In this document: positions 1 through 61,752 of the stretch, in pieces | Layout: each line of letters opens with the position of its first letter | Numbering within the stretch: position 1 is the first letter of the stretch | Assembly: GCF_007991735.1 (NCBI RefSeq) | Contig: NZ_BJYX01000002.1 | Location: forward strand, 248,001 to 312,000 | DNA from: Terrabacter aerolatus | GTDB taxonomy: Bacteria; Actinomycetota; Actinomycetes; Actinomycetales; Dermatophilaceae | Length of the DNA: 64,000 nt | Direction of reading: 5' to 3' | The notes under the pieces: model-generated | What the model was told of the DNA's origin: nothing | What the model saw: only the letters and a program-made list of their open reading frames with translations | Database searches by the model: none | Made by a program: the position numbers and the translations under genes

Positions 1-329
1 GCACGCCCCCGGTCACGACGATGATCAAGGCCGACATGAAGTGTTCGTCGGTCGCCGCGGCCAGCGTGCTGGCGAAGGTGGAGCGCGACGCCATGATGGT
101 GGCGCTCTCGGCCGAGCACCCGGCATACGCCTGGTCGCTCAACAAGGGCTACTCGGCGCCCGAGCACATGGATGCCCTCGCGCGCCTCGGGCCGTGCGAG
201 CTGCACCGGCGGTCGTGGCGACTGCCCGGGGTCCACGTGGACGGGCCGGTCGGGGTGTTGAATGAGGGGACGGAGAACCTCGCTCCGGTGCCCACGACGG
301 CAGAGCAGACAGGGACGGCGATCAGGTGA
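1..329 (+). CDS. rnhB: Ribonuclease HII, C-terminal part (gene cut by window start)
   Basis: RNase HII cuts the RNA strand of RNA-DNA hybrids and starts removal of ribonucleotides misincorporated in DNA. Only the C-terminal third is present and the frame is open from base 3. The segment [21 protein letters not shown], near bases 27-89, is the family signature. Its first Asp corresponds to the fourth metal-binding acidic residue of the D-E-D-D active site. The family block [17 protein letters not shown] follows. About 30 residues trail after the conserved RRSW block, a non-conserved tail. The stop overlaps the GTG start of the DUF2469 gene by four bases, so the two are probably co-translated. 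Identity is secure; the N-terminal catalytic residues cannot be checked. Confidence 0.93.
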
Positions 330-646
330 GTTCGGAAGATCTCGAGAAGTACGAGACCGAGATGGAGCTCCAGCTCTACAAGGAGTACCGCGACGTCGTC
401 GGCCTCTTCACCCATGTCGTCGAGACCGAGCGCCGCTTCTACCTCGCCAACTCCGTCGACGTGAAGGTGCGCAGCGACGGGGGTGAGGTCTTCTTCGACG
501 TCACCATGGCCGACGCCTGGGTGTGGGACATCTACCGTCCGGCGCGCTTCGTCAAGAACGTGCGCGTCGTGACGTTCAAGGACGTCAACGTCGAGGAGCT
601 GCCCAAGCCCGACATCAAGCTCCCGGAGAGCGGCGACTTCAGCTGA
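326..646 (+). CDS. DUF2469 family protein
   Basis: A 106-residue acidic cytosolic protein starting at GTG 326, four bases inside rnhB (GTGA overlap). The opening [20 protein letters not shown] and the core [22 protein letters not shown] are diagnostic of DUF2469, a small family almost limited to actinobacteria and nearly always found directly after rnhB. No enzyme motif, membrane segment or cysteine pair is visible. Its biochemical role is not known. The fixed linkage to rnhB suggests a link with DNA or RNA metabolism, but that is inference. About 110 bases separate it from yraN; that gap holds one copy of the GTATGCCG octamer (692-699) and no clear terminator. Confidence 0.93.
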
Positions 647-757
647 CGCCGGGCTCCGCGTCCGGCTCGTCCACACCCCCTCACCGGTCACGTATGCCGT
701 CCACAGCCTGCCCCTGGGCGGTGTCCTCGCTGGGGTGGCGCCGCGAGGGTGGTCGTC

Positions 758-1123
758 ATGGACCTCTCCACCCGTGCCCTCGGCGACTACGGTGAACGCC
801 TCGCGTGCCGCTACCTGCTCGCGCAGGGGCTGACGATCCTCGACCGCAACTGGCGGTGCGCCCGCGGCGAGATCGACGTCGTCGCCGTCGAGGGCGGCGA
901 GCTCGTCGTCTGCGAGGTCAAGACCCGCACGAGCGAGGCCTACGGCGCCCCGTTCGAGGCGGTGACGTGGCGCAAGCAGCGACGCCTGCGACGTCTGGCC
1001 GGCCTGTGGCGCGACGACCACGACGCCCTCGCGCGAGGTCTCGCGCTGCGCATCGACGTCATCTCCATCCTGAGGCCGCCGGCAGGACGGGCGAGCCTCG
1101 AGCACCTGAGGGCGGTGTGCTGA
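758..1123 (+). CDS. yraN: YraN family (UPF0102) endonuclease-like protein
   Basis: A 121-residue protein with the restriction-endonuclease-like fold of UPF0102. Visible hallmarks are GDYGERLACRYL near the N-terminus, the catalytic-type series GEIDVVAVEGGELVVCEVKTR (E-x-D ... E-V-K), and RKQRRLRRLAGLW. ATG 758 is chosen because a GAGGG stretch at 745-749 is well spaced; GTG 749 in the same frame would add three residues. The TGA stop shares one base with the ATG of the yifB-like gene, so translation is likely coupled. Neighbouring yifB and dprA are DNA-handling genes, which fits the nuclease fold, but no substrate has been assigned to this family with certainty. Confidence 0.9.
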   Translation: MDLSTRALGDYGERLACRYLLAQGLTILDRNWRCARGEIDVVAVEGGELVVCEVKTRTSEAYGAPFEAVTWRKQRRLRRLAGLWRDDHDALARGLALRIDVISILRPPAGRASLEHLRAVC

Positions 1124-2676
1124 TGGCCCTCGGACGCACGCGCTCGGTCGGGCTGCGCGGGGTGCACGGTTTCGTCGTCGACGTCGAGGCGCACGTGACC
1201 CAGGGTCTGCCCGGCTTCGCCATCAGCGGCCTGGGTGACTCGGCGGTGAAGCAGTCGTCGGACCGCATCCGGGCCGCGGCCGCCCTCATCGAGAAGATGC
1301 CGGTGAGCCAGCGGCGGGTCACCGTCAACCTGTCGCCGGCGGGGGAGCGCAAGGTGGGCACCGGCTTCGACCTCGGCATCTTCATCGCCGTCGCGGCGGC
1401 GATGGACCTCGTGCAGGTGGGCGTCGTCCGCGACGTCGTGCACATCGGCGAGGTGGGCCTCGACGGGACGGTCCGTCCGGTGCCGGGTGTGCTCCCGCTC
1501 GTGCGCGCCGCCTCGCTGGTCGGGGTGCGTCACGTCGTCGTCCCGGTCGCCAACGCCGGCGAGGCCCGCCTCGTCTCGGGGGTGCACGTGCACCCCGTCG
1601 CCGACGTCACCGAGCTCGTCCGCCGCTACGGCGCGCTCGGCAAGGGGCACGGGGTCGAGGAGGTTCCGGTGCCCCTCGTCGCCGCCGCACCACCGGAGCC
1701 GGTGCGCGACCTCAGCGAGGTCATGGGGCAGGCCGACGCGAAGCTCGCCCTCGAGATCGCGGCGGCCGGCGGGCACCACCTGCTGTTCGCCGGGCCGCCC
1801 GGAGCCGGCAAGACGATGCTGGCCGAGCGGCTGCCGGGCCTGCTGCCGGCTCTCGGCGAGGCCGAGTCGATGGAGGTCACGGCCATCCACTCGGTGCTCG
1901 GGACGCTCGGCTCCGGCCACGAGGCGCGCCTCATCTCCCGTCCTCCGTTCGTGGCGCCCCACCACGGGGCGTCGCAGGCTGCGGTCATCGGCGGCGGCAG
2001 CGGCCACATCCGCCCCGGCGCCATCACCCAGGCCCACCACGGCGTCCTCTTCCTCGACGAGACCCCGGAGTTCGACAAGGGCGTGCTGCAGTCGCTGCGC
2101 ACGCCGCTCGAGCGCGGATCGGTCTCGATCGCGCGGGCACAGGAGACCGTCACCTTCCCGTCGCGCTTCCAGCTCGTCCTGGCGGCCAACCCGTGCCCGT
2201 GCGGCCACGGCTGGGGCAAGGGTCTCGACTGCACCTGCACACCGCTCATGCGCCGCTCCTACTTCGGCAAGCTCAGCGGCCCGTTGCTCGACCGCGTCGA
2301 CCTCCAGGTGCACGTGCAGCCCCCCGGGCTGTCGATGGCCGGAGCGCCGGCAGGGGAGTCCACCGCCTCAGTCGCGGAGCGGGTCGCCGCCGCGCGCACG
2401 GCGCAGGGGCAGCGGTGGCGCGAGGTGCTGGGGCGCCGCGGGGTCAACGCGGACGTTCCCGGCTCGGTCCTGCGCGGTCGTCCGTGGCGGCTGCCCACTT
2501 CCGCGACGACGACCCTCGACCGGGCCCTCGAGCGAGGCGCGCTGAGCTTGCGCGGCTACGACCGCACGCTGCGGTGCGCATGGACCATCGCCGACGTCCT
2601 GGGCCTGCAGCGCCCGGGCCTCGAGCAGGTCGACCTTGCCCTGTCCCTCCGCCACCGGGCGGGGGTCGCCGCGTGA
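1123..2676 (+). CDS. YifB/ComM family Mg-chelatase-like AAA+ ATPase
   Basis: 517 residues, a normal full length for the YifB/ComM family. Order of parts: an N-terminal Lon-protease-like ChlI domain (about 1-165), an AAA+ core with Walker A GPPGAGKT (224-231) and Walker B VLFLDE (about 308-313), then a cysteine-rich patch ANPCPCGHG...DCTC and a C-terminal Mg-chelatase domain. In naturally competent bacteria ComM is a branch-migration helicase that widens heteroduplex during transformation. The adjacent dprA supports a role in handling incoming single-stranded DNA. The gene starts within the yraN stop codon (TGATG). Confidence 0.93.
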   Translation: MALGRTRSVGLRGVHGFVVDVEAHVTQGLPGFAISGLGDSAVKQSSDRIRAAAALIEKMPVSQRRVTVNLSPAGERKVGTGFDLGIFIAVAAAMDLVQVGVVRDVVHIGEVGLDGTVRPVPGVLPLVRAASLVGVRHVVVPVANAGEARLVSGVHVHPVADVTELVRRYGALGKGHGVEEVPVPLVAAAPPEPVRDLSEVMGQADAKLALEIAAAGGHHLLFAGPPGAGKTMLAERLPGLLPALGEAESMEVTAIHSVLGTLGSGHEARLISRPPFVAPHHGASQAAVIGGGSGHIRPGAITQAHHGVLFLDETPEFDKGVLQSLRTPLERGSVSIARAQETVTFPSRFQLVLAANPCPCGHGWGKGLDCTCTPLMRRSYFGKLSGPLLDRVDLQVHVQPPGLSMAGAPAGESTASVAERVAAARTAQGQRWREVLGRRGVNADVPGSVLRGRPWRLPTSATTTLDRALERGALSLRGYDRTLRCAWTIADVLGLQRPGLEQVDLALSLRHRAGVAA

Positions 2677-2798
2677 TCCCCGAGGGCCGGGACCGGCCGA
2701 GGGTCCACGACGTGCCTCCGAAAGAGCTCACCACGGAAGGCCTTGCCGCGAAGGACCTCCCCACGGACGACAGGACGGAGACCGGCGATGGATGCTGA
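2673..2798 (+). CDS. Possible 41-residue small protein between yifB and dprA
   Basis: A short frame opens with GTG inside the last codon of the yifB-like gene (GTGA overlap) and ends 11 bases inside dprA, exactly bridging the gap. It encodes a hydrophilic, charged peptide with a loose repeat (PPKELTTEGLAAKDLPTDD). No signal peptide, membrane helix or known motif is visible, and there is no Shine-Dalgarno sequence. The end-to-end overlap with both neighbours is what a translation-coupling leader would look like, but an open frame of this size is expected by chance in such GC-rich DNA. Treat as a candidate only. Confidence 0.22.
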   Translation: MIPEGRDRPRVHDVPPKELTTEGLAAKDLPTDDRTETGDGC

Positions 2799-3894
2799 CC
2801 GGTTCGCCCGGGCGGCGCTGTCCCGCGTCGCAGAGCCGTGCGACAGGGAGGTCCCGGGCCTCGTCGCCGAGCTGGGTGCCGTCGAGACGCTCGAGCGCAT
2901 CCGGGCCGGTCGCGGCACGCTGGCGCGCTTCGCGGCGCGGCTGGCGGTGCTCGACACCGAGCGCGACCTCGACATCGCGGCCAAGGTCGGCGCACGGGTC
3001 GTCGTGCCCGACGACGACGAGTGGCCCGAGCGGCTCGGCCAGGTGCCGGTCCCGCCCTACTGCCTCTGGGTGCGCGGGCCGCTCGACCTCGCGGAGACCG
3101 TCGAGCGGTCCGTCGCCGTCGTCGGCTCACGGACGGCGACCGCCTACGGCGAGCAGGTCGCCGCCGACCTCGCCGCGGGCCTCTGCCAGCGGGGCTGGGC
3201 CGTCGTGTCCGGTGCGGCCTTCGGCATCGACGGGAGCGCCCACCGCGGCGCGCTGGCGGTCGACGGGGCCACGGTCGCGGTGCTGGCGGGCGGGGTCGAA
3301 CGCCCCTACCCGTCGGGGCACGCCGCGCTCCTGTCGCGGATCGCGAGGGACGGGCTCGTGGTCTCGGAGGTGGCGCCGGGGTCGGCCCCGATGAAGTCCC
3401 GGTTCCTGGCCCGCAACCGGCTCATCGCCGGGATGACGCGGGGCACGGTCGTCGTCGAGGCGGACCTCCGGTCGGGCTCGCGCAACACCGTCAAGCACGC
3501 GATCGAGGCCGGCCGGCACGTCGGTGCGGTGCCGGGTCCGGTCACGTCGATGACCTCGTCCGGCTGCCACCAGGAGATCCGTGACCAGAGGGCGGTGCTC
3601 GTCACCAGCGCCGAGGAGGTGATCGACCTCGTCGGCGACCTCGGCGACGACGCCCACGAACCCGGACGGGGACCGGTGCTGCCCGGCGACGACCTGTCCC
3701 CGTTCGACGCGGCGGTCCTCGAGGTCGTGCCGTTCCGCTCCGGGCTCACCCTGGACGCGGTCGTCCGGCAGGTGGCCCAGGCGCCCCTCACCGTCCGAGC
3801 GGCACTCGGACGTCTCGAGCGGCTCGGCCTCGTGGGCGAGTCCGCCGGGACGTGGCGCAAGCGACCCCAGCGGTCCCGGCTGCCACTCGGCTGA
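2788..3894 (+). CDS. dprA: DNA-processing protein DprA
   Basis: DprA (Smf) binds single-stranded DNA taken up by competent cells and loads RecA on it. The 368-residue product has the Rossmann-like core: [14 protein letters not shown] at the start of the fold, then [16 protein letters not shown], the block [18 protein letters not shown], and [21 protein letters not shown] with VPGPVTS. A winged-helix-like C-terminal domain occupies roughly the last 70 residues. ATG 2788 is chosen because GGAG lies at 2777-2780 and the protein then begins at the usual point (MDADRF); an upstream ATG at 2743 would add 15 arginine/threonine-rich residues of no family likeness. The gene follows the ComM-type ATPase, as in many actinobacteria. 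Confidence 0.93.
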
Positions 3895-5615: not shown

Positions 5616-6800
5616 TCAGGGGGTGGCGGAGGACCGTGCGCCGGTGCCTGCGCCGGCGAGGCGGCGGCTCGCCTCGAGCAGGACCTCATCCTTCTTGCAG
5701 AAGGCGAACCGCACCAGGGTGCGGGCCGCGTCCTGGTCGTCGTGGAAGACCGAGACCGGCACGCCGACCACCCCAGCGACCTCGGGCAGCCGTCGCGCGA
5801 ACTCCAACCCGTCGACCGCGCCGAGGGGCGCCGCGTCGGCGATGACGAAGTACGTGCCCGACGGCCGGGCCACCCGCAGCCCCGACGCCTCGAGGGCGGA
5901 GCACAGCAGGTCACGCTTGGCCTGCAGCGAGTCGCGCAGACCGGCATACACCTCGTCGCCGAGACCGAGGGCCAGCGCGACCGCGGGCTGGAACGGACCG
6001 GACGCGGCGTAGGTGAGGAACTGCTTGACCGTGCGCGCCGCCGCGACGGCTTCGGCGGGACCGCTCAGCCAGCCGACCTTCCAGCCGGTGGCGGAGAACG
6101 TCTTGCCGCCCGAGCTGATCGTGATGGTCCGATCGGCCATCCCGGGCAGGGTCGCCATCGGCACGTGCTCGGCGTCGTCGAAGACGAGGTGCTCGTAGAC
6201 CTCGTCGGTGACGACCCAGGCGTCGTGCTCGCGGGCCAGGTCGGCGACGAGCTCGAGCTCGGCACGCGAGAAGACCTTGCCCGTCGGGTTGTGGGGCGTG
6301 TTGAGCAGCACGAGCCGGGTGCGCGAGGAGAAGGCCGCCCGCAGCGACGCCTCGTCGACGGCGAAGTCGGGGAAACGCAGCACCGACGTGCGGCGGGTGG
6401 CGCCGGCGAGGGCGATCGTGGCGGCATACGAGTCGTAGTAGGGCTCGAAGGTGACGACCTCGTCACCGGGCTCGCACAGCGCGAGGACGACCGAGGCGAT
6501 CGCCTCGGTCGCGCCGGCGGTGACGAGCACCTGCGTGGCCGGGTCGAGCGAGATGCCGTAGAAGCGCTGCTGGTGGGCCGCGACCGCCTCGAGCAGCTCC
6601 GGCACACCGGGACCCGGCGGGTACTGGTTGCGACCGCCGTCGATCGCGGCCCTGGCCGCCTCGAGCATCTCGCGCGGGCCGTCGGTGTCGGGGAAGCCCT
6701 GCCCGAGGTTGATCGCACCGGTGCGCGTCGCGAGCGCCGACATCTCGGCGAAGATCGTCGTCCCGAACGGTTGCATGCGCGAGATCAGCGGCGAGCTCAT
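5616..6800 (-). CDS. PLP-dependent aminotransferase class I/II
   Basis: A fold-type I aminotransferase of 394 residues. The PLP lysine sits in SSGGKTFSATGWKVGW. Also visible are the NPTGKVFS turn that binds substrate, VTDEVYEHLVFD for the PLP-ring Asp and Tyr, and the N-terminal NLGQGFPDTDGP segment shared by DapC (N-succinyldiaminopimelate aminotransferase) and kynurenine/methionine aminotransferases. Substrate cannot be settled from sequence. ATG 6800 is favoured over a longer frame because the family begins here and TACGCT lies six bases upstream, predicting a leaderless message. The gene lies alone between two minus-strand genes. Confidence 0.88.
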   Translation of the reverse strand: MSSPLISRMQPFGTTIFAEMSALATRTGAINLGQGFPDTDGPREMLEAARAAIDGGRNQYPPGPGVPELLEAVAAHQQRFYGISLDPATQVLVTAGATEAIASVVLALCEPGDEVVTFEPYYDSYAATIALAGATRRTSVLRFPDFAVDEASLRAAFSSRTRLVLLNTPHNPTGKVFSRAELELVADLAREHDAWVVTDEVYEHLVFDDAEHVPMATLPGMADRTITISSGGKTFSATGWKVGWLSGPAEAVAAARTVKQFLTYAASGPFQPAVALALGLGDEVYAGLRDSLQAKRDLLCSALEASGLRVARPSGTYFVIADAAPLGAVDGLEFARRLPEVAGVVGVPVSVFHDDQDAARTLVRFAFCKKDEVLLEASRRLAGAGTGARSSATP

Positions 6801-7005: not shown

Positions 7006-7059
7006 CGACGTGACGCGAGAGCACTCATCGGACAGCAGGGCGTATGCCGTGCCGCCGGC

Positions 7060-8976
7060 TCAGGAGGCGGCTGACGCGCCCAGCCCGCACCCGGTCACGC
7101 GGTAGAGCGTGTAGTTGCCGTCGGTGCGGACCGGCTCGACGCCGTCGACCTTGGCCAGGTCGGCGAGGCCGGAGGACCGCTCGGGCCGGTCGAGCCAGTA
7201 GACGTGCGTGGAGTCGATCGCCCACCGGATGTCGTGGCGGGCCATCGCCTCGCACACGTCCGGACGGTGGGCCATGTCGTTGAACCCGGTGCCGATGACG
7301 ATCTCGTCGCCCGTCGTCGGGATGGGGATGGACCGGTAGAGGGTGTTCGTGCCGAAGAGCGGCCACATCAGGGGCGAGCCGTTCTCGGGCCGGCCGACGA
7401 CGCCCTGGCCGGCGGGGATGAGCGCGGCGAGCCGGCGCAGCGAGTCCTGGCCGTCGAACGAGAGGATGACCCGCTCCGGCGCGCTCGGCCGGAAGAAGCC
7501 GCTCAGCATGCTGTTGCGGGTGCCCCCGTTGAGGCCCAGCGTCAGGAGCGGGAGCACGAGCACGGCGACGAGGCCGACGAGGACCGGACGCGACCCGAGG
7601 CCGGGCACCTTGCGCAGCAGCTCGCGCAGGGCGGGCGCGGCTGCCGCGACGAGGACGACACCGGGCACGGCGGCGAGCGAGGCGAGCCGGACCTTGTCGT
7701 TGTACCAGTAGCCGGTGACGAGCGAGGTCCACGACGCCGTCGAGGACGCCGCCATGACGTAGAGCAGGACGCAGGCCCCCCACATCGCCACGACCGGCAG
7801 CGCGGCCCGGACCCGAAGGGCGATCCACCCGATCCCGAGGGCGAGGAGCAGCATGAGGCCCCACAGCACGTCGGGGACCTGCAGCCGGCCGCCCACCACC
7901 TCGACGAGCGCGGTCCAGACCGACACCCGGTCCTTCCACTCGTAGGACTGGGTCGAGGCGAGCTGCGCGGAGACGATCGGGGCCGCGACCAGGCCCGCGA
8001 CCCCGACGACCGCGACGACCGCGAGGTCGCGCACGACGACCCACCACGAGAGGTGGCCGAGCAGGCCGGCGCGGAGGCGGGCCGTCACGAACCACACGAG
8101 CGCGAAGACGACGAGCGCGACGAGGGCGTTGGGCTGGATGAGGGCGAGGCCCGGCATCGCGGCGACGAAGCCGAGCCACTGCCCGACCCGCTTCGAACGC
8201 GCGGCCTGGAGCATGAGGGCCAGCGCACCCGGGGTCAGGGCCGTCGCCATGAGGTTGGGCCACAGCACGCCCCACCCGAGGAGGATCGTCGGGAAGGCGA
8301 TGAAGGCGGCGGAGGCGAAGCCTGCGGCATACGTCACGAGACGTGAGGTGCCGAGCGCGTGACGCACGAGCGCGACGCAGCCGAGGGGCCAGACCAGCGC
8401 CGCGAGGACGATGGTCGCGACGTTGGTGCCCGGGAGCACGTCGGCGACTCCCGGCAGCAGACCGGTCGCGACCCACGAGTGGAAGCCGTTGGGGTAGAAC
8501 GTCGGGTTGGCGATCGAGAAGTTGCCGGTCTCGAGGAAGGTCTTGATGCGGCTCAGGTGGTAGACCGCGTCGGGGGAGTCGACGAGCTCGTCGGGTCGGC
8601 CCATCGCCGGGAGGATCGTCACGAGGGCGAGCACGGCACCGATGACGATGGCCACGACGGCGTCGGGGCGGGGGCGGCCGAGGAGCCGGCGGGCCGTGCC
8701 GAGCTCCGGGTCGTGCCGACCGAAGAGCCGCATCCCGACCCAGGCGAGGGCGGTCACGACCAGCGTGACGACGAGGAGCGGCCCGAGCCCCCAGCGCACG
8801 CCCACGCGCTGGGCCACGGTCGCGAAGACGGCGATGAGGCCGGCGGAGACGGCGGGAGAGACCGCGAGCGCCTCGAGGCCTCGCGCCCCCAGCGCCCGCA
8901 CGACGAGCCAGCCGGGCAGGAACAGCACGACCGAGAGGACGACGAAGGCCGGGATCGTCTCCACCCAGTGCGCCAT
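7060..8976 (-). CDS. Large polytopic membrane protein, DUF6541-like
   Basis: A protein of about 638 residues with roughly a dozen hydrophobic helices followed by a soluble C-terminal domain of about 150 residues (from GTRNSMLSGF to the end). The pattern, including WVETIPAF at the N-terminus and YHLSRIKTFLETGNFSIANP in the first long loop, resembles the actinobacterial DUF6541 family. These proteins look like GT-C-fold glycosyltransferases that use lipid-linked sugars on the outer membrane face, but the function is unproven. ATG 8976 is chosen because CAGAAT ends seven bases upstream; ATG 8985 is equally possible. It is divergent from rpsB across about 290 bases that must hold both promoters. 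Confidence 0.72.
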   Translation of the reverse strand: MAHWVETIPAFVVLSVVLFLPGWLVVRALGARGLEALAVSPAVSAGLIAVFATVAQRVGVRWGLGPLLVVTLVVTALAWVGMRLFGRHDPELGTARRLLGRPRPDAVVAIVIGAVLALVTILPAMGRPDELVDSPDAVYHLSRIKTFLETGNFSIANPTFYPNGFHSWVATGLLPGVADVLPGTNVATIVLAALVWPLGCVALVRHALGTSRLVTYAAGFASAAFIAFPTILLGWGVLWPNLMATALTPGALALMLQAARSKRVGQWLGFVAAMPGLALIQPNALVALVVFALVWFVTARLRAGLLGHLSWWVVVRDLAVVAVVGVAGLVAAPIVSAQLASTQSYEWKDRVSVWTALVEVVGGRLQVPDVLWGLMLLLALGIGWIALRVRAALPVVAMWGACVLLYVMAASSTASWTSLVTGYWYNDKVRLASLAAVPGVVLVAAAAPALRELLRKVPGLGSRPVLVGLVAVLVLPLLTLGLNGGTRNSMLSGFFRPSAPERVILSFDGQDSLRRLAALIPAGQGVVGRPENGSPLMWPLFGTNTLYRSIPIPTTGDEIVIGTGFNDMAHRPDVCEAMARHDIRWAIDSTHVYWLDRPERSSGLADLAKVDGVEPVRTDGNYTLYRVTGCGLGASAAS

Positions 8977-9264
8977 GCGGGCCATTCTGTCGGGTCGCCA
9001 CGATTTCTCCACCACCCGGGTCAGGACGTACGATGGTCGGCGGTCACGTGTGCTCGTCACGCGGGACCGAAATTCGCGCGTCTTCTACCGGTCCGCCGGA
9101 CCGGGTCGCACCACGGCAGTCCCCCCGCTCGCGGAGGGGCGGGGTGCGTCAGGCGCCAGGAGTGAGGTCGTATGCCGCCCGCCGGGCCACGTCGTCTACG
9201 TGACCCTGTCGGTGACAGCGCCCACGCACAACTGACAACACACAACAGCTAGGGAGAACACGGC

Positions 9265-11090: not shown

Positions 11091-11154
11091 GGTCCTGACC
11101 TCCCTCGTGCCACCGCAGCACGCGTAGCGCAGAACCCGCGCATCACGACGACGT

Positions 11155-11186
11155 ATGCCGGTCGCCCCCATCGGGGCGGCCGGCAT
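11155..11186 (+). terminator. rpsB-tsf terminator hairpin
   Basis: A 14-bp stem (11155-11168 with 11173-11186; one T-G wobble) closes a four-base loop CATC. It begins 64 bases after the tsf stop. The outer arm uses ATGCCGG from a copy of the GTATGCCG octamer. There is no T-run. Confidence 0.8.
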
Positions 11187-14188: not shown

Positions 14189-14944
14189 ATGAACCAGGGG
14201 TATGCCGCATCGTCGGCGAGCGCCGCCGCTCCGACGCTGCTCGTCGTCGAGGACGACCCGACGATCAACCAAGCCGTCACCGATCGCCTTGTGGCTGAAG
14301 GCTTCCGGGTGGTCCAGGCCTTCGACGGCCCGGGCGCGGTCGCCGCTCACGGCGAGCACGCTCCCGACCTCGTCGTGCTCGACCTCATGCTGCCCGGCTT
14401 CGACGGCCTCGAGGTCTGCCGGCGCATCCAGGGCGAGCGCCCGGTGCCGGTCCTCATGCTCACGGCACGTGCCGACGAGACCGACCTGCTCGTGGGCCTC
14501 GGTGTCGGCGCCGACGACTACGTGACCAAGCCGTTCCGCATGCGCGAGGTCGTCGCCCGGATCCGGGCCCTGCTCCGGAGGGTGGACCGCGCCCGGGAGC
14601 TGGCCTTGGAGCAGCCGCCGGTGCTCGCCGTCGGTGACCTCTTCGTGGACCGCGGGTCGCGCCGCGTCACGGTGCGGGGGAGCGAGGTGCACCTGACCCC
14701 GCTCGAGTTCGACCTGCTGCTGGCGCTGGCCTCCGATCCCGGTGCCGTGCGAGGGCGTGACGAGCTGATGCGGGAGGTCTGGGGCTGGGCCGACGCCGGT
14801 GGCACGCGCACCCTGGACAGCCACGTGAAGTCCTTGCGCGCCAAGGTCGGTGGCGAGCGCGTGCGCACCGTCCACGGCGTCGGCTACGCGCTCGAGACCG
14901 GTCCGGTGGCCACCGACGAGCTGGACGGTCCGGTCCAGCCGTGA
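14189..14944 (+). CDS. OmpR/PhoB-family response regulator
   Basis: A 251-residue two-component regulator. The receiver domain (about 16-130) has acidic pocket E21-D22-D23, phospho-acceptor D65 in VVLDLMLPGFDG, T91 in MLTARADE and K113 in YVTKPF. The C-terminal winged-helix DNA-binding domain shows LTPLEFDLLLALASDPGAV, RDELMREVWG and LDSHVKSLRAKVGG...VRTVHGVGYAL. The kinase gene starts within its stop (GTGA overlap), so regulator and kinase form one coupled pair. TAGGCT ending seven bases before the ATG predicts leaderless transcription. The signal sensed is unknown. Confidence 0.93.
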   Translation: MNQGYAASSASAAAPTLLVVEDDPTINQAVTDRLVAEGFRVVQAFDGPGAVAAHGEHAPDLVVLDLMLPGFDGLEVCRRIQGERPVPVLMLTARADETDLLVGLGVGADDYVTKPFRMREVVARIRALLRRVDRARELALEQPPVLAVGDLFVDRGSRRVTVRGSEVHLTPLEFDLLLALASDPGAVRGRDELMREVWGWADAGGTRTLDSHVKSLRAKVGGERVRTVHGVGYALETGPVATDELDGPVQP

Positions 14945-17655: not shown

Positions 17656-18807
17656 GTGCGTCGCGACATCGCCGAGCAGTTCGAGCTCGACCCAGGGCTG
17701 ACCCACCTCAACCACGGTGCGTTCGGCGCCGTGCCCCGGGCGGTCCGGCAGGCCCAGGACCGCGCGCGGGCCCGCATCGAGCGGGCGCCCATGCGCGCCT
17801 TCCGTGACGAGCTGCCCGAGCTCCTCGCCGCGGCGCGGGAGTCGGCGACCCGCTTCCTCGGGCTGCCCGCGGGGTCGACCGCCCTCGTGCGCAACGTCAC
17901 CGAGGCGGTCGGCGTGGTGCTCCAGGGCCTCGACATCGGTCCGGGAGACGACGTCGTCGTCAGCAACCACGGCTACCTCACCGCAGGCTGGTCGGCCGAG
18001 GCACGCGGCGCGACGTTGCGCACGGCGGTCTTCCCCGTGGACGCCGACCCCGACGCGGTGGTGGCGGCCTTCGTGGCCGCGCTGACCGATCGCACCCGGC
18101 TCGTCGTCATCGACCAGATCACCTCGCCCACGGCCCTCGTCCTGCCCGTGGCAGCGGTGGCGGCGGCCGTGGCGCCGGTCCCGGTCCTCGTCGACGCCGC
18201 GCACGTGCCGGGCGCCCTGCCCGGGCTCGACATCGAGGCGCTGGGCGTGGACTTCTGGGCGGGCAACCTGCACAAGTGGGCCTACACGCCGCGAGCGGCT
18301 GCGACGCTGTGGGTGGCAGCGGAGCACCGCGCGTCGATGCGTCCCCTCGTCACCTCGTGGAGCCACGGGCTGCCCTATCCCGAGCGGTTCGACCTCCAGG
18401 GCACGGTCGACCACTCGTCGTGGGTCGCCGTCCCCGACGGACTGGCCGCGTGGCGCGAGCTCGGCGGGTGGGAGCAGGTCGGGCGCAACGCGGAGCTGCT
18501 CGCGCGCGGCGCCGAGCACGTGCGCGCGGCGCTCGGCACCGAGCACCCGCAGGGCGGCACACCGTCGGCCCCGTGCCTGGGGCTCGTCGCTTTGCCGGAC
18601 GGCGTGGCCACGACGACGGAGGCCGCCGAACAGCTGTGGCAGCGCCTGTATGCCGTCGGGTTCGTCGTGCCTCCCATCGCCTTCGAGGGGCGCGGCTACC
18701 TCCGCCTCGCAGCGGCCCCCTACAACGACGAGAGCGACTACGAGCGCCTCGCCGCGGCCCTTCCCGCGGTCCTCGACACCGTCAGGGCCACGGTCGGCAC
18801 CCCCTGA
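17656..18807 (+). CDS. Class V aminotransferase-fold PLP enzyme (isopenicillin N epimerase-like)
   Basis: A 383-residue enzyme beginning [29 protein letters not shown], the opening of the isopenicillin N epimerase (CefD)-like branch of class V aminotransferases. The PLP lysine lies in [17 protein letters not shown], and [16 protein letters not shown] provides the ring-binding Asp and His. There are no beta-lactam genes nearby, so an epimerase or cysteine-desulfurase-related activity on another amino acid is more likely. GTG 17656 fits the family start; CAGGAT lies six bases upstream, predicting a leaderless message. The gene lies between the kinase and pyrH with no operon link visible. Confidence 0.85.
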
Positions 18808-33003: not shown

Positions 33004-33052
33004 CCGGCGACACCCCCCAACGGCATACGCACGGCGACGGGGACCTGCTGGT

Positions 33053-35001: not shown

Positions 35002-35040
35002 GCGCCGATCTTGACGTGTGGAACACGCTGTTGGCAAGTC

Positions 35041-35094: not shown

Positions 35095-35114
35095 TCTGCG
35101 TCTAGCATTCCCGC

Positions 35115-36563: not shown

Positions 36564-36609
36564 CCGGGTCGCCACAGGGGCAGCAGCACCGACGGACAGA
36601 GACGTCCGA

Positions 36610-36635
36610 ACTCCCGGTCCGCTCGGACCGGGAGT
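36610..36635 (+). terminator. Intercistronic hairpin between ALDH and potD
   Basis: ACTCCCGGTCC (36610-36620) pairs perfectly with GGACCGGGAGT (36625-36635) around the tetraloop GCTC. potD begins only 27 bases later with its own AAGGAGA, so this may partly terminate or stabilise the message rather than fully end it. Confidence 0.7.
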
Positions 36636-36661
36636 GTTCACCAGCACGTGAAGGAGAAGGC

Positions 36662-40762: not shown

Positions 40763-40774
40763 CCTCTGGAGTGA

Positions 40775-44641: not shown

Positions 44642-44653
44642 CCTCGGTCGGTC

Positions 44654-44717
44654 GTATGCCGTGTCGCGAGGACGTGCGAGAACGGCACCCTCGTGCGACG
44701 GCCCCGTGACGGCATAC
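44654..44717. terminator. Convergent-gene stem-loop with the GTATGCCG octamer as both arms
   Basis: GTATGCCGT (44654-44662) and ACGGCATAC (44709-44717) are inverted copies of the dispersed octamer. Inside them GTCGCGAGG (44663-44671) pairs with CCTCGTGCGAC with a two-base bulge. The structure lies exactly between the DnaB-like gene and the convergent barstar gene and can act on both transcripts. Confidence 0.6.
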
Positions 44718-44728
44718 GCACTCGGGCG

Positions 44729-47588: not shown

Positions 47589-48788
47589 GTGACTGACATC
47601 TCGGCCCACCGGCGCATCGTCCTGCTCGGCTCGACCGGCTCGATCGGCACGCAGGCGATCGACCTCGTCCAGCGCAACCGTGACCGGTTCGAGGTCGTCG
47701 GGCTCTCGGCCGGGGCCAACCTCCGGCTCGTCGCCGAGCAGGCCGTCGCCCTCCGCGTCCCCGTCGTCGCGGTCGCGAGCGGGACGCACGACGACCTCGC
47801 CACAGCGCTCGCCGACGCGGCCGACGCGGCCGGCGTGACGGCATACGACCCCGAGCTGCTCGTGGGCCCCGAGGCCAGCACGACGCTCGCCGCCCGGGAG
47901 GCCGACGTCGTCGTCAACGGCATCACGGGGGCCATCGGGCTCGAGCCGACGCTCGCCGCCCTGCGCGCCGGGACGACGCTCGCGCTCGCCAACAAGGAGT
48001 CGCTCATCATCGGCGGCCCGCTCGTCAAGGCGCTCGCGGCTCCCGGCCAGATCGTCCCCGTCGACTCGGAGCACAGCGCCATCGCCCAGTGCCTGCGCGG
48101 CGGACGCGCCGAGGAGGTGCGCCGGCTCGTCGTCACCGCGAGCGGCGGCCCGTTCCGCGGTCGCAGCCGCGCCGAGCTCGCCGACGTCACGCCCGAGCAG
48201 GCCCTGGCGCACCCGAACTTCTCGATGGGCCGGGTCATCACGACGAACTCCGCCACCCTCGTCAACAAGGGTCTCGAGGTCATCGAGGCGCACCTGCTCT
48301 TCGACATCCCCTTCGAGCGCATCGACGTCGTCGTGCACCCGCAGCAGATGATCCATTCCATGGTCGAGTTCGTCGACGGCTCGACGATCGCCCAGGCGGG
48401 GCCGCCGCGGATGCTCGTGCCGATCGCCCTCGGCCTGAGCTGGCCCGAGCGCATCGCGGACGCCGACGTCCCCGTCGACTGGACCCGGGCACAGTCGTGG
48501 GACTTCGAGCCGCTCGACGACGAGGCCTTCCCGGCCGTCGCGCTCGCCCGCCGGGTGGGCGAGGCCGGAGGCACGTGGCCCGCGGTCTACAACGCGGCGA
48601 ACGAGGTCGCGGTGGACGCCTTCCACGAGGGTCGCATCGGCTTCGTCGACATCGTCGACACGGTGTCGCAGGTGGTCGACGCGTATGCCGCCGAGCCGGC
48701 CTCACGGGTCACCGACCTGTCGCTCGCCGACGTCCTCGGCGCCGACGACTGGGCCCGCTCGGCGGCCCGTCACGTCATCTCCGGCTAG
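47589..48788 (+). CDS. dxr: 1-deoxy-D-xylulose-5-phosphate reductoisomerase
   Basis: The second enzyme of the non-mevalonate (MEP) isoprenoid pathway, making MEP from DXP with NADPH, and the target of fosmidomycin. In 399 residues: NADPH loop [15 protein letters not shown] (11-25), [13 protein letters not shown], metal site [14 protein letters not shown], the flexible loop [46 protein letters not shown] and [21 protein letters not shown] 47589 has GACAAT seven bases upstream, predicting a leaderless message. ispG of the same pathway lies 1.5 kb downstream after rip1. Confidence 0.97.
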
Positions 48789-50312: not shown

Positions 50313-51473
50313 ATGAGCGTCTCCCTCGGTATGCCGCCCCTGCCCCCGCCGGTCCTCGCCCCGCGGCGCCAGACCCGCCAGATCCAGGTCGGCAAGGTCG
50401 GGGTCGGGAGCGACTTCCCGGTGTCGGTGCAGTCAATGACGACGACGCCCACGACCGACATCAACGCCACGCTCCAGCAGATCGCCGAGCTCACGGCCAG
50501 CGGCTGCGACATCGTGCGCGTCGCGTGCCCGAGCCAGGACGACGCCGACGCGCTGCCCGCCATCGCGCGCAAGAGCCAGATCCCGGTCATCGCCGACATC
50601 CACTTCCAGCCGAAGTACGTCTACGCGGCCATCGAGGCCGGCTGCGCGGCCGTGCGGGTCAACCCCGGCAACATCCGCCAGTTCGACGACCAGGTCAAGC
50701 AGATCGCGCGCGAGGCCAAGGACGCCGGCGTCTCGATCCGCATCGGCGTCAACGCCGGCAGCCTCGACAAGCGGATCATGGAGAAGTACGGCAAGGCGAC
50801 GCCCGAGGCGCTCGTCGAGTCGGCCGTCTGGGAGGCGAGCCTCTTCGAGGAGCACGACTTCCACGACTTCAAGATCTCGGTCAAGCACAACGACCCCGTC
50901 GTCATGGTGCGTGCCTACGAGCTGCTCGCCGAGCGCGGCGACTGGCCGCTCCACCTCGGTGTCACCGAGGCCGGCCCCGCCTTCCAGGGCACCATCAAGT
51001 CGGCGACGGCCTTCGGCGCGCTCCTCTCGCGCGGCATCGGCGACACGATCCGCGTCTCCCTCTCGGCCCCGCCGGTCGAGGAGGTCAAGGTCGGCATCCA
51101 GATCCTCCAGAGCCTCAACCTGCGCCCGCGCAAGCTCGAGATCGTGTCGTGCCCGTCGTGCGGCCGCGCTCAGGTCGACGTCTACACGCTCGCCGACCAG
51201 GTCACCGCCGGGCTCGAGGGCATGACCGTGCCCCTGCGCGTCGCCGTGATGGGCTGCGTCGTCAACGGCCCGGGCGAGGCCCGCGAGGCCGACCTCGGCG
51301 TGGCCTCCGGCAACGGCAAGGGCCAGATCTTCGTCAAGGGCGAGGTCATCAAGACCGTCCCCGAGGCGCAGATCGTCGAGACGCTCATCGAGGAGGCCAT
51401 GCGCCTCGCCGAGGAGATGGGCGAGCCGGTCGACGAGGAGTCGGCCGGGGCCCCCAGCGTCACCGTCAGCTGA
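50313..51473 (+). CDS. ispG: (E)-4-hydroxy-3-methylbut-2-enyl-diphosphate synthase
   Basis: The penultimate MEP-pathway enzyme, a [4Fe-4S] protein that converts MEcPP to HMBPP. The 386-residue sequence starts [20 protein letters not shown] and continues with the TIM-barrel block [45 protein letters not shown], and the cluster domain with [10 protein letters not shown] and [17 protein letters not shown] supplying the three cysteine ligands. A flavodoxin or ferredoxin is the usual electron donor. The small kinase gene starts two bases after its stop. Confidence 0.97.
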
Positions 51474-53508: not shown

Positions 53509-54383
53509 CGGGTCCGTCGCGAACGCGCCGTTCGCCGACGAGAAGACGATGCTGATGTTGTCACCGACCCTGCGGTACCCCAGCGCCCGGTAGATGGCGT
53601 TGGACGTCGGGTTGGCGAGGTCCGTGAAGAGCATGCACGCCTCACCCCGGTCCATCCGGGCGCTGCTCAGGGCGGCGACGACGGCGCTCGCGTAACCGTG
53701 GCCACGCCGGCCGGGCGGGGTCCACACCCCCGAGATGCGCGTGACCCCTCCGCTGGCCGGCGAGGCGTACGCCATGGACACCGGGCGCCCGTCGACCTCC
53801 CACAGCCCGACCCGTCCGTCCGCGACGTGACGCTCCAGCGAGGAGGCGGCGCGGCCCCCGCCCTCGATGGCGTCGACGAAGTCCTGGTGCCACAGCTCGA
53901 GCAGGGCCGCGTCCGCGACGGTGGCCGGCCGGAAGGACCCCGCGACGGCGAAGGGCACCCGAGGACGCACCGGCAGGTCGAAGCGCCCCACCTCCATGGT
54001 CACCGTCGCGCAGGCGCCCGTGCGTGCGGTCCACTCGTCGGCGAACGCCTCGGCCGCCCCGCGCAGACCGCCCACGCCCGGCGGCCGGTCGCCGGTCCCT
54101 GCGAGGTGGGCGGCCAGAGCCCGTGCCTGAGCCGGCGTCGCCAGCGCGACGTGCAGCGGGTGCGGCGGGGTGTGCATGAAGGCGGCGACGACCTCGCCGG
54201 CCGGGTCCACCCCCGCCCACCACCGGGCGCGCCGACGTGGTGGTCGGGATCCGCGACGAGGGCGCCGGTCACGCTCGCGAGGACGCTCAGCGCCTCCGGC
54301 TCGGCGGCGACGAGGCCGGCGAAGCGCGTCTGTGCGGCGGCCGGCTCGGTGACGAGCTCGAACGTGCAGGAAGGGGACGGCAT
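53449..54383 (-). pseudogene. GNAT acetyltransferase interrupted by a frameshift
   Basis: Two frames together make one protein of about 310 residues. The first opens at ATG 54383 (MPSPSCTFELVTEPAAAQTR ... ALVADPDHHVG). At about 54222-54232, in a GC-rich run, homology moves to another frame that continues RWWAGVDPAGEVVAAFMHTPPHPLHVALAT and holds a normal GNAT domain (GVWTPPGRRGHGYASAVVAAL; NPTSNAIYRALGYRRVGDN). The net change is one base missing or two extra. The C-terminus runs 60 bases into the convergent DoxX-like gene. It is either a recent pseudogene or a sequencing error in a GC run. A copy of GTATGCCG spans the start codon. Confidence 0.8.
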
Positions 54384-54436
54384 ACGCCCACTCTGGCAAA
54401 CCTGCAGCGGCGCCCGCGAGCGCATTTGCCCGCGGG

Positions 54437-57937: not shown

Positions 57938-57996
57938 GGGTGCAGTCCTGGCTGTCTTGGAGGTGGATGGGGGAGTGGTCGGCGTCGGCGCGGCGC

Positions 57997-59643
57997 TCAC
58001 GCGCTCTCGCGCGTTTCGGTGGTCGCCTGCGAGCCGCCGTGGGTCCGCCGGGTCATGAGGCGCATCAGGGACTCCTGATCCGCCTCCTCGCGGGAGAGCA
58101 CGCCGGTGACCGCACCCTCGGCGATGGTGTAGATGCGGTCGGACAGGCCGATCAGCTCGGGCAGCTCGGAGGAGACGAGGATGACGCCCTTCCCCTCCGA
58201 GGCCATGCGCTGGATGATCCCGTAGATCTCGAACTTGGCGCCGACGTCGATGCCGCGGGTCGGCTCGTCGAGGATGAGCAGGTCGGGCTCGGTGAAGAGC
58301 CACTTGGCGAGCACGACCTTCTGCTGGTTGCCGCCGGAGAGCTTGGCGACGCCCTCGTCGACGTTCGGGGCCTTGGTGCGCAAGGACTTCCGGTAGGACT
58401 CGGCGAAGTTGTACTCCTCCCGCTCGTCGACGACGAAGCCGCGGGTGATGCGCTTGAGCCGCGCAGACACCGTCGTGCGCTTGATGTCGTCGAGGAGGTT
58501 GAGGCCGAGGGTCTTGCGGTCCTCGGTGACGTAGGCCAGCCCGGCGTCGATGGCGTCGGAGACGGACCGGAGCCGGAGCTCGTGGCCGTCCTTGATGATC
58601 TGCCCCTCGACGTAGGTGCCGTAGGAGCGGCCGAAGAGGCTCCGCATCAGCTCGGTGCGACCGGCCCCCATGAGTCCGGCGAAACCGACGATCTCGCCGC
58701 GGCGGACGAAGAAGTCGCTGTGCTTGGCCACGAGGCGGTCGGGCACGCTCGGGTGCCGGACGGTCCAGTTCTTCACCTCGAAGAAGACCTCGCCGATCTC
58801 CGGCGTGTGGTCGGGGAAGCGCGACTCGAGGTCGCGCCCGACCATGCCGCGGATGATGCGGTTCTCGTCGACGCCGTCCTCCTTGACGCGCAGGGTCTCG
58901 ATGGACCTGCCGTCGCGGATGATGGTGATGGAGTCGGCGATCTGCTCGATCTCGTTGAGCTTGTGGCTGATCATGATGCAGGTCACGCCCTTGGAGCGCA
59001 GACCGGCGATGAGGTCGAGCAGGTGCTGGGAGTCGCCCTCGTTGAGGGCTGCCGTCGGCTCGTCGAGGATGAGGAGCTTGACGTCCTTGGAGAGAGCCTT
59101 GGCGATCTCGACGAGCTGCTGCTTGCCGACGCCGATGTCGCGGATCTTGGTGTCGGGCTCCTCCTCCAGGCCCACGCGGGCGAGCAGCTCGCGCGCCTTG
59201 ACGCGGGTGGCCAGCCAGTCGATGACCCCGCCGGAGGCGGTCTCGTTGCCGAGGAAGATGTTCTCGGCGATCGACATCTCCGGGATGAGCGCGAGCTCCT
59301 GGTGGATGATGACGATGCCGGCGTGCTCGCTGTCGCGGATGTTGTTGAACTCGCACAGCCGACCCTCGAAGTGGATCTCACCGTCGTAGGTGCCGGCGGG
59401 GTGCACCCCGGAGAGGACCTTCATGAGGGTGGACTTCCCGGCGCCGTTCTCCCCGCAGATCGCGTGCACCTCGCCTCGGCGGACCGCCATCGAGACGTCG
59501 GAGAGGGCCTTGACGCCCGGGAACTCCTTGGTGATGGATCGCATCTCGAGGATGACGCTCCCGGGCGGGGTGACCTCGGTCGCCCCGGCGCCGGTCGCGT
59601 CGGCACCCGATGACCCAGGAGCCGGGATGGAGGGGTTGCTCAT
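57997..59643 (-). CDS. gguA: Multiple-sugar ABC transporter ATPase (two nucleotide-binding domains)
   Basis: A 548-residue duplicated ATPase as in RbsA/XylG/GguA. First domain: Walker [11 protein letters not shown]-loop [21 protein letters not shown], signature [15 protein letters not shown], Walker [12 protein letters not shown]. Second domain: degenerate Walker [10 protein letters not shown], then [26 protein letters not shown] and [12 protein letters not shown]. The GLMGAGRTE loop is normal for the second half of this family. It is the first gene of the sugar operon, divergent from proS across 330 bases, with AAAGGAG about 15 bases before the ATG. Confidence 0.94.
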
Positions 59644-59973
59644 CTGGTCGTCAACACTCCTTTGTGGTGTTCGTGAGGCGCAAAGGCCCGTCCTGATTGT
59701 TCCTCACGGCTCGGGCCCACGTGGCCGAACACCGCGTCGTTTCGTCACAAGGACGTCACGATCTCTGGACGAGGTCTGCCGTCACCGTCCGGCACGGTCA
59801 CTGAACCGGTGGTCGTGCTCGCGGTCAAGGACATGACCACTTCTTGTCCGGTCCGGACAATGACCGGACACGGCGCTGGCCAGCGGCCTCTCGGGACGGC
59901 CGATATCCTTCCAAGGTTCCGCACCTGCGCGCGTGAGACTCGCCGTGCAGCCAGCACCACAAGAGGAGACCCG
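59644..59973. other. 330-base divergent control region between gguA and proS
   Basis: No gene is visible. It holds an inverted repeat CGTGAGG/CCTCACG (59672-59678, 59702-59708) just upstream of gguA, four GTCAC pentamers on the plus strand (59744-59801; the first two, in CGTCAC, have an 11-bp period), the strong palindrome at 59844-59860, and a possible proS -10 in GATATCCT (59902-59909) with GAGGAG as ribosome binding site at 59963-59968. A clear -35/-10 pair for gguA was not found. Confidence 0.6.
59844..59860. promoter_or_regulatory. Palindromic operator TTGTCCGG-T-CCGGACAA
   Basis: A 17-bp palindrome with perfect 8-bp arms, followed by a third half-site CCGGACA at 59864-59870. It lies 184 bases upstream of gguA and 114 upstream of proS. 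Its size and symmetry suit a dimeric LacI-, ROK- or GntR-family regulator of the sugar operon. No regulator gene is adjacent. Confidence 0.6.
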
Positions 59974-61752
59974 GTGGCCCTGCACATGTCGTCCCTGTTC
60001 CTGCGAACCCTTCGCGAGGACCCGGCGGACGCAGAGGTCCCGAGCCACCGCCTGCTCGTCCGGGCCGGCTACGTGCGACGCGTCAGCCCCGGCGTCTACA
60101 CGTGGCTGCCGCTCGGACTCCGCGTGCTGCGCAACGTCGAGAAGATCGTGCGCGAGGAGATGGACGCGATCGGCGCCCAGGAGCTGCTCTTCCCCGCCCT
60201 TCTTCCTAAGGAGCCCTTCGAGGCCACCGGCCGCTGGACCGAGTACGGCGACAACATCTTCCGCCTGCAGGACCGCAAGGGCGCCGACCACCTGCTCGGC
60301 CCGACCCACGAGGAGATGTTCACCCTCACGGTCAAGGACCTCTACAGCTCCTACAAGGACCTGCCGCTGTCGATCTACCAGATCCAGACGAAGTACCGGG
60401 ACGAGGCACGTCCCCGTGCCGGCGTGCTCCGGGGCCGTGAGTTCGTCATGAAGGACAGCTACTCCTTCGACGTCGACGCCGCCGGCCTCGACAAGAGCTA
60501 CCAGCTGCACCGCGAGGCCTACGTCCGCATCTTCGACCGCCTCGGCTTCCACTACGTCATCGTCGAGGCGATGGCGGGCGCCATGGGTGGCAGCAAGAGC
60601 GAGGAGTTCCTCGCCACGGCCGAGGTCGGCGAGGACACCTACGTCCACTGCACGAGCTGCGGGTATGCCGCCAACGTCGAGGCCGTGCGCGTCCCCGCTC
60701 CCAGCCCGGTCGGGTGGGAGGACGTGCCGGCCGCGCACGCCGAGGACACCCCCGACACCCCCACCATCGACACGCTGGTGACCCACCTCAACGAGCGCTT
60801 CCCGCGGGACGACCGTCCGTGGGAGGCCGGCGACACCCTGAAGAACGTCGTCGTCACCCTGGTCAACCCCGACGGCACGCGCGAGCCGCTCGCGATCGGC
60901 GTCCCCGGCGACCGCGAGGTCGACGAGAAGCGCCTCGGGGCCCAGGTCGAGCCGGCCGAGGTGGAGGCCTTCACCGAGGCCGACTTCGCCGCCAACCCGG
61001 CGCTCGTCAAGGGCTACATCGGCCCGGGCGCCCTGGGTCTGGAGGGCTCGTCCGGCATCCGCTACCTGCTCGACCCCCGCATCGCCGAGGGGACCCGGTG
61101 GGTCACCGGGGCCGACGTCGCCGGGCAGCACGTCATCGACCTCGTCGCCGGCCGCGACTTCTCCGCCGACGGCACCATCGAGGCGGCCGAGGTGCGCCCC
61201 GGAGACCCGTGCCCCACCTGCGACCACACGCTCTCCGCCGCCCGCGGCATCGAGATGGGCCACGTCTTCCAGCTCGGCACGAAGTACGCGGAGGCGCTCG
61301 ACCTCAAGGTGCTCGACCAGAACGGCAAGCTCGTCACCGTCGTCATGGGCTCCTACGGCGTCGGCGTCTCCCGCGCGGTGGCCTGCGTCGTCGAGGGCAA
61401 CCACGACGAGTCGGGCATCATCTGGCCCCGCGAGCTGGCGCCCGCCGACGTGCACGTCGTCGCAGCCGGCAAGGACGAAGCCCTCTTCGTCAAGGCCGAG
61501 GAGATCGCCCGCGAGCTCGAGGTGCAGGGCCTCTCCGTCCTCGTCGACGACCGCAAGGGCGTCAGCCCCGGCGTGAAGTTCAAGGACTCCGAGCTCATCG
61601 GCATCCCGACGATCCTCGTCATCGGCCGCGGGCTCGCCGACGGCAAGGTCGAGATCAAGGACCGCCGCAGCGGCGAGCGACGCGAGGTCGCCGTCGACGA
61701 CGCCGTCGCGGCCCTGACGGCCGAGGTCACGGCCGAGGTCGAGCGCTCGTGA
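59974..61752 (+). CDS. proS: Prolyl-tRNA synthetase, bacterial type
   Basis: A class II aminoacyl-tRNA synthetase of 592 residues. Class II motif 1 region ([20 protein letters not shown]), motif 2 ([26 protein letters not shown]) and motif 3 ([16 protein letters not shown]) are visible. The INS editing domain (about 230-390) removes mischarged alanine. The C-terminal anticodon-binding domain follows. GTG 59974 is chosen because GAGGAG is six bases upstream and the product then starts with [21 protein letters not shown], the normal opening. Its stop overlaps the HAD gene (GTGA). Confidence 0.97.

Follow-up and report, generated by a model that had tools for sequence, protein, structure and literature searches.

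What is the octamer GTATGCCG doing in the genome of Terrabacter aerolatus? The stretch analysed here (64,000 nucleotides, positions 248,001 to 312,000 of contig NZ_BJYX01000002.1; hereafter the window) contains exactly 30 copies, 16 on the plus and 14 on the minus strand, spanning positions 121 to 60670, and an earlier note on this DNA, which had reported at least 30 copies with the same orientations and range, proved exact on recount. The octamer differs from its own reverse complement, i.e. it is non-palindromic. We propose, with a probability of roughly 0.7, that it is a DNA uptake sequence (DUS) which this actinobacterium shares with much of its family, because its copy number, intergenic excess, hairpin-forming inverted pairs, dialects sharing a core, genomes with two dialects and absence from some members match the DUS of the Neisseriaceae. 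In the part of PMC3630211 consulted, those DUS are described as having thousands of copies, intergenic inverted pairs linked to terminators, and family-wide dialects with an inner core; two dialects may occur in one genome, and some members lack them.

The octamer is far more frequent than sequence composition predicts. For the window, base composition gives an expectation of 2.17, in agreement with the value of about two given before, an order-3 Markov model gives 1.47, and dinucleotide shuffles had a mean of 0.77 and a maximum of 3. The whole genome (4.42 Mb, 62 contigs) has 1072 copies on the plus and 1091 on the minus strand, 2163 in total vs 195 for the reversed octamer used as a control. 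When a 463-kb sample of the genome was compared with Markov models, a comparison that the earlier note had recommended for the complete genome, 249 copies were found; the order-3 model predicted 11.8 or, with the copies masked in training, 1.6, and the octamer stood far above the expectations of orders 0 to 3 and also above synonymous-codon shuffles. A count at or below expectation, which the earlier note had set as grounds for refutation, was not seen with these Markov models or with the codon shuffles. Explanations by base composition or Markov structure were rejected, since the masked models leave a large excess. The consensus extends to C-GTATGCCG-T, with the preceding C in 61% and the trailing T in 53% of copies.

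Codon choice does not explain the excess, as judged from synonymous shuffles and from the intergenic copies. By our gene calls, 22 of the 30 window copies are genic: the Tyr-Ala phase accounts for 15, the Ala-Tyr phase for six and the Gly-Met-Pro phase described earlier for one, at 50329; the other eight lie between genes (Table 1), so the intergenic copies reported before are confirmed, their number (seven) being revised. Across the 463-kb sample, 70 of the 249 copies are intergenic, a density of 1.38 per kb that is approximately three times the 0.43 per kb of genes, and the copies in genes occupy five codon phases. Coding copies numbered 176, whereas shuffling synonymous codons within each gene 50 times left 15 on average and never more than 24, which bears out the view that coding choice is bent to keep the octamer. 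For example, the TAT codon is used in 129 of 351 Tyr-Ala dipeptides (124 as TAT-GCC) vs 36 of 1950 other tyrosines. Compared with residue shuffles, Tyr-Ala (351 vs 294) and Ala-Tyr (352 vs 296) are themselves mildly over-represented, and the protein sequence is also slightly bent towards the octamer.

The placement of the copies is strand-neutral and structured. In nine 40-kb bins (360 kb) the strands are near even, the most uneven bins having 7 vs 12 and 9 vs 14 copies, and the spacing is more regular than random (variance 5.9 at a mean of 10.8 per 20 kb, 23 bins). Strand neutrality and even spacing are features of uptake sequences. Between genes, the density is 3.05 per kb for convergent, 1.32 for tandem and 0.87 for divergent neighbours. 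Among neighbouring copies separated by no more than 60 bp start to start (541 kb), 10 of 13 pairs are ordered plus then minus, where 1.97 would be expected for each orientation. All ten fold as predicted hairpins, some with stems extending beyond the octamer, and nine of them lie outside called genes, six of the nine within 40 bases of a stop codon.

The word is widespread in the family. Using our own thresholds on the counts of GTATGCCG or GGATGCCG, we called 115 of the 186 genomes of the family, belonging to 33 genera, word-bearing and the remaining 71 word-less (handles such as G015, g1 and L147 are our own for genomes, genera and loci). The comparison with related genera suggested earlier thus found GTATGCCG or its one-letter variants to be abundant in many genomes of the family, and near-equal strand counts recur in other bearers. 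G015 has the most GTATGCCG copies of the 186 (4724), and all nine genomes of genus g1 are word-bearing. At the borders of the call, g51 falls below the thresholds (51-77 copies per Mb, 4.0-4.6 times the control), G023 passes on a weak excess (1142 vs 453), and in a 40-kb sample of G013 the word, with 9 copies, does not rank with the top octamers though the genome has 939. The gene caller was trained on the window's genome and covers the lower-G+C genomes G022, G027 and G010 poorly, so the absence of the word there rests on Markov scans. Losses are seen inside bearing genera, with 19 copies in G126, 37 in G065 and 50 in G150, where other genomes of the same genera have 1062-3681, 1251-1660 and 394-1901, respectively; no clear replacement word was found in the 20 kb each of G126 and G065 that were scanned. 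Outside the family, we counted 2-167 copies (0.5-4 times the reversed control) in 22 genomes representing 19 further families of the order, and 0 to 3 in the other named actinobacterial loci, 78 in all. Two named loci group with the bearers: that of Knoellia flava has 17 copies over 21 kb and that of an Ornithinimicrobium has 8. NCBI places these genera in Intrasporangiaceae and Ornithinimicrobiaceae, respectively.

Related genera use one-letter variants of GTATGCCG. The GGATGCCG dialect replaces it in G024, G071, G034 and G082 (3816-4480 copies) and in G083 (3619), both forms are abundant in G084 and G085, and genus g54 has both in differing proportions. In the window's own genome GGATGCCG is mildly raised (104 vs 44-49 expected in 463 kb). 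Further dialects, which rest on samples of 30-80 kb, are GAATGCCG in G020 (a genome with 1025 GTATGCCG as well), GTATG[A/C/G]CG, seen in G011 as GTATGACG and GTATGGCG alongside GTATGCCG, and GTATGCGN in G028; these sampled words exceed synonymous shuffles and also have an intergenic excess. ATG at positions 3-5 is common to GTATGCCG and all of these dialects. Another candidate, GTACGNCG (G031, G032 and Kribbella locus L122), consists of favoured codons and was judged unproven as a dialect despite its excess over shuffles (28 vs 9.6 in G031). Outside the family, the Cryobacterium loci L150 and L151 contain an iterated word, A[AG]CGGATG (18 and 16 copies in 21 kb), that occurs on both strands, usually has C as its next base and resembles the GGATGCCG dialect, and a milder excess of CGGATGC occurs in L156, L157 and L180.

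Individual sites are conserved between genera of the same dialect and lost in a closer genus of another dialect. We compared about 34 kb of the window around a gene that we take to be ispG. In seven congeners, 69 of 94 aligned GTATGCCG sites are identical, vs a background identity of 0.35-0.44 when all octamers are counted and 0.41-0.51 when only those with three A/T are. G012 and G015, at 76-77% nucleotide identity, keep nine of ten sites (background 0.20, or 0.22-0.23 with three A/T), whereas G034, of the other dialect and at 82% identity, keeps none of ten (background 0.29, or 0.33 with three A/T). G034 has 45 GGATGCCG in the 40 kb compared, and of its 23 aligned GGATGCCG one stands opposite GTATGCCG and five opposite GGATGCCG; the dialects therefore differ mostly by turnover of sites. 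Knoellia flava keeps three of four aligned window sites, whereas Janibacter massiliensis, at the same overall identity, keeps none of six and has no copy in its 21-kb locus.

The genome also encodes components that DNA uptake would use. ComEC is found by PF03772 (154.6 bits, cut-off 23) and ComEA by HHH_3 and SLBB above cut-off; the NCBIfam models of ComEA and ComEC score under their curated cut-offs. ComEC is present in 36 of 36 family genomes examined and was rejected as a discriminator of word-bearing. Two Tad/Flp pilus clusters were found. The tad-1-like cluster contains tadA, tadB, tadC, a small pilin, TadE, a TadF-like protein with no family match and a TadG-like protein, and it adjoins genes that presumably correspond to prfB and ftsE; in the tad-2-like cluster, TadA exceeds the heli_sec_ATPase cut-off. 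According to the part of PMC4322843 consulted, Micrococcus luteus needs two Tad clusters for transformation and pili. The two clusters here are likely homologues of both, the match being made by gene order and, by eye, by pilin sequences (pilin N-termini from PMC6370729) rather than by direct comparison with M. luteus proteins. The tad-1 branch of TadA discriminates word-bearing genomes, if weakly. A TadA match at E <= 1e-60 is absent in 18 of the 186 genomes, namely 14 of 71 word-less and 4 of 115 word-bearing (p 0.0005, phylogeny uncorrected); by genus, 6 of 20 word-less vs 0 of 33 word-bearing genera have no match in any genome (Fisher p 0.0017, phylogeny uncorrected). Taken as a whole, the T2SSE ATPase family is no discriminator, some match being present in 31 of 31 genomes. 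We no longer count a third, classic Flp cluster as a requirement, since the word-bearing G011, G012, G019, G030 and G034 have no TadA of its score class (classes that we read off the scores ourselves).

Several genomes have an interrupted tad-1. In G005, G006, G001 and G015, tadA is split into two parts 5 to 11 kb apart (G005:C6:341001-348500, which is L227:1215-6650; G006:C8; G001:C13; G015:C43), and further family genomes have partial tadA matches only, some at contig ends. The insert in G005, of about 5.4 kb, encodes a serine recombinase with Resolvase, Recombinase and zinc ribbon domains and sits in what we take to be the Walker A motif. The consulted parts of PMC4774983, PMC11472951 and PMC12955456 deal with mobile elements that insert into competence genes, and for this reason the interruptions fit tad-1 as a competence gene, without being proof of it. 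In L191 (G034) and L204 (G028), too, the cluster is broken, here in tadC or behind it, most pilin genes being unmatched in the stretch; genes that look transposase-like follow in G028. Directly behind tad-1 in the window's genome, L185:14960-15418 encodes a lamin tail domain protein (PF00932) with a signal-like N-terminus, and a homologue follows tad-1 in G024. As a general receptor it was judged unlikely, because among 17 stretches compared (G025 not being tad-1, and G034 and G028 disrupted) it stands beside tad-1 only in these two genomes. Divergent from tad-1, L185:5079-9443 encodes a protein of 1454 amino acids, with matches in most tad-1 stretches compared, which we assume to be an FtsK/EccC-type ATPase with a forkhead-associated domain.

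Based on these features, the following mechanism can be proposed. Some component on the surface of the Tad/Flp-type competence pilus would bind DNA carrying the word, the pilus together with ComEA and ComEC, whose genes are present, would import it, and DprA, also encoded here, together with RecA would recombine it into the chromosome. Since tagged DNA would enter the cell and recombine more frequently, alleles with a tag may spread by drive, and such drive could fill the genome wherever genes tolerate copies, i.e. at synonymous positions, between genes and in inverted pairs, which are the places where copies are observed. The inverted pairs may double as terminator hairpins. If the preference of the receptor shifted, the genome would drift to a one-letter variant, which may be how the observed dialects arose. 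We also lean, if only slightly, towards a broader joint claim: that this is a third origin of self-specific uptake, in Gram-positive bacteria and through a Tad/Flp pilus, an old signal of the family with ATG-core dialects and kin in Cryobacterium, which mobile elements may counter by insertion into tadA.

High copy number, absence of polarity, dialects with a shared core and competence genes of predicted function were all found, as expected for an uptake sequence, and intergenic excess with terminator-like inverted pairs was found in the window's genome, the pair excess being weak elsewhere. Several observations weigh against the uptake reading. Only the window's genome has a clear hairpin-pair signal; across ten further sets of genomes, of which one pools seven congeners, plus-minus and minus-plus pairs each numbered 18 vs about 11 expected per orientation, direct pairs 12 vs about 23, and five of the 18 plus-minus pairs are one orthologous site. 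A TadA match is retained by 57 of the 71 word-less genomes, and TadA is therefore not sufficient for the word. Four word-bearing genomes have no TadA match, two of them incomplete and two complete (G154 and G160, genus g69); in the complete ones either a recent loss or an interruption of the gene may lie behind the absence. The line at E <= 1e-60 also admits another Flp-type TadA, so some genomes called present (e.g. G117) may have the paralogue. The word-bearing Ornithinimicrobium keeps none of three aligned window sites. Finally, among the matches listed for open-licence PMC papers, none looked like a report of transformation or uptake in the named taxa of the family.

Other explanations can be weighed on the same evidence. 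The octamer could be the site of a chromosomal protein acting in nucleoid organisation, at domain boundaries or as a non-polar recombination hotspot, with sites kept spaced. Such a protein would account for even spacing, strand neutrality and high site conservation, and it could likewise change its specificity; we nevertheless regard this as rather unlikely, because three observations fit uptake better than a housekeeping function of the chromosome: the excess of inverted pairs near stops and between convergent genes in the window's genome, the one-letter dialects together with the replacement of sites between closely related genera, and the loss within genera (G126, G065 and G150). The earlier note had likened the octamer to HIP1 (highly iterated palindrome 1) of cyanobacteria and thought of upkeep by methylation or repair. 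Like HIP1, which has alternate forms in some cyanobacteria (consulted part of PMC4390886), the word is a genome-wide iterated octamer of similar copy number with variants in some genomes, but HIP1 (GCGATCGC) is a palindrome with dedicated methyltransferases. In the window's genome (G000), G007 and G015 no match was found to N6_N4_Mtase (PF01555), N6_Mtase (PF02384) or C5 DNA_methylase (PF00145), other families including the D12/Dam type being outside the search, so that an enzyme could have been missed there; overall, matches occur in 12 of 30, 14 of 20 and 7 of 20 genomes, respectively. Since the octamer is no palindrome and matches to the three families searched are absent from these genomes, HIP1-like methylation is unlikely as its upkeep.

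Repair would be expected to leave a mark on its precursors, yet no octamer one base from GTATGCCG is strongly depleted. As a class, one-mismatch octamers were observed 304 times vs 216 expected (masked order 3), which speaks against repair turning one precursor into GTATGCCG. The lowest common ones at order 3 were GTCTGCCG (28 vs 39 expected) and GTACGCCG (15 vs 20), and at order 2 GTCTGCCG (28 vs 50), GTACGCCG (15 vs 35) and GCATGCCG (47 vs 78). We regard sites made or kept by methylation and methylation-dependent repair as very unlikely. Dialects, inverted pairs where genes end and a connection with a competence pilus speak for an uptake sequence rather than a HIP1-like site. A preference for codon pairs or amino acids, or a mutation bias, in either case with no recognition of DNA, would suit the fact that most coding copies are Tyr-Ala or Ala-Tyr, the former slightly in excess, but it is contradicted by the intergenic density, the five codon phases, the confinement of TAT mainly to Tyr-Ala and the synonymous shuffles, and is highly improbable. 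The same low standing applies to a polar signal of replication or segregation such as Chi, KOPS (FtsK-orienting polar sequences) or AIMS (architecture imparting sequences). The last of these also consist of thousands of short sites, but the strand balance of the genome and of each 40-kb bin rejects polarity, as the earlier note had argued for Chi and KOPS.

Compared with known systems, the proposed uptake sequence has its own features. In the portion of PMC12616744 consulted, DNA uptake sequences are reported only in the Neisseriaceae and Pasteurellaceae, two proteobacterial families named there as the sole ones known to tell self from foreign DNA when taking it up. Among the matches listed for open-licence PMC papers, no title or opening of an abstract described uptake sequences in Actinobacteria. 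Unlike the Neisseriaceae DUS, the word belongs to another phylum and has another motif, its dialect core is ATG, and the candidate machine is a Tad/Flp pilus instead of a type IV pilus with ComP. Like the uptake signal sequence of Pasteurellaceae (same portion of PMC12616744), it is short, non-palindromic, enriched in the genome and divided into types by lineage, but the motifs are unrelated. The system resembles Micrococcus luteus transformation in its two Tad clusters, similar gene order and ComEA/ComEC (consulted part of PMC4322843), whereas the term "uptake sequence" occurs 0 times in the main text of that paper and, unlike the window's genome, Micrococcus locus L147 (16.6 kb) has 0 GTATGCCG. 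If the uptake reading is true, this would be a third independent case of sorting self DNA, in Gram-positive bacteria and with another type of pilus, implying that the trait evolves repeatedly. There would be new receptors to find, and the word would help to explain how genera of the family exchange or refuse DNA and could be a simple tag for transforming its strains. Using the dual-dialect genus g54 and the within-genus losses, the origin, switching and death of uptake words would become directly testable.

Table 1. Copies of GTATGCCG and related features in the window
Feature	Position	Strand	Basis
Copy, in gene	121..128	-	exact match, gene calls
Copy, intergenic	692..699	+	exact match, gene calls
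Mg-chelatase-family ATPase gene, comM/yifB-like, adjoins dprA	1117..2676	+	TIGR00368 419.4 bits (cut-off 362.4)
dprA, recombination mediator of natural transformation	2788..3894	+	TIGR00732 222.9 bits (cut-off 191.15); PF02481
Copy, in gene	5942..5949	-	exact match, gene calls
Copy, in gene	6422..6429	-	exact match, gene calls
Copy, intergenic	7042..7049	+	exact match, gene calls
Copy, in gene	8325..8332	-	exact match, gene calls
Copy, intergenic	9170..9177	+	exact match, gene calls
Copy, intergenic	11153..11160	+	exact match, gene calls
Copy, in gene	14200..14207	+	exact match, gene calls
Copy, in gene	16112..16119	-	exact match, gene calls
Copy, in gene	16959..16966	+	exact match, gene calls
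Copy, in gene	18648..18655	+	exact match, gene calls
Copy, in gene	20892..20899	+	exact match, gene calls
Copy, in gene	25496..25503	-	exact match, gene calls
Copy, in gene	27181..27188	-	exact match, gene calls
Copy, in gene	27437..27444	+	exact match, gene calls
Copy, in gene	30626..30633	-	exact match, gene calls
Copy, in gene	31137..31144	+	exact match, gene calls
Copy, in gene	32757..32764	-	exact match, gene calls
Copy, intergenic	33021..33028	-	exact match, gene calls
Copy, in gene	41260..41267	+	exact match, gene calls
Copy, in gene; same in G012 and G015 (76-77% nucleotide identity)	42342..42349	-	
Predicted hairpin on inverted pair, 12 and 11 bases from two convergent gene ends; fold energy -32.7	44652..44719		
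Copy, intergenic, left arm of inverted pair between convergent genes; same in 7/7 congeners	44654..44661	+	
Copy, intergenic, right arm of inverted pair with 44654; same in 7/7 congeners	44710..44717	-	
Copy, in gene; same in G012, G015 and Knoellia flava	47839..47846	-	
Copy, in gene	48683..48690	+	exact match, gene calls
Copy, Gly-Met-Pro phase; same in G012, G015 and Knoellia flava	50329..50336	+	
Copy, in gene; reads GGATGCCG in G034, a GGATGCCG-dialect genome	51504..51511	+	
Copy, intergenic	54378..54385	-	exact match, gene calls
Copy, in gene; same in G012, G015 and Knoellia flava	60663..60670	+	

The ATPase gene beside dprA is presumably comM, and the gene holding the copy at 47839 is, we assume, dxr-like. 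The longest part of the window free of GTATGCCG is 33029-41259 (8.2 kb), partly of lower G+C, and its genes look to us like those of a dehydrogenase and a polyamine-type ABC transporter.

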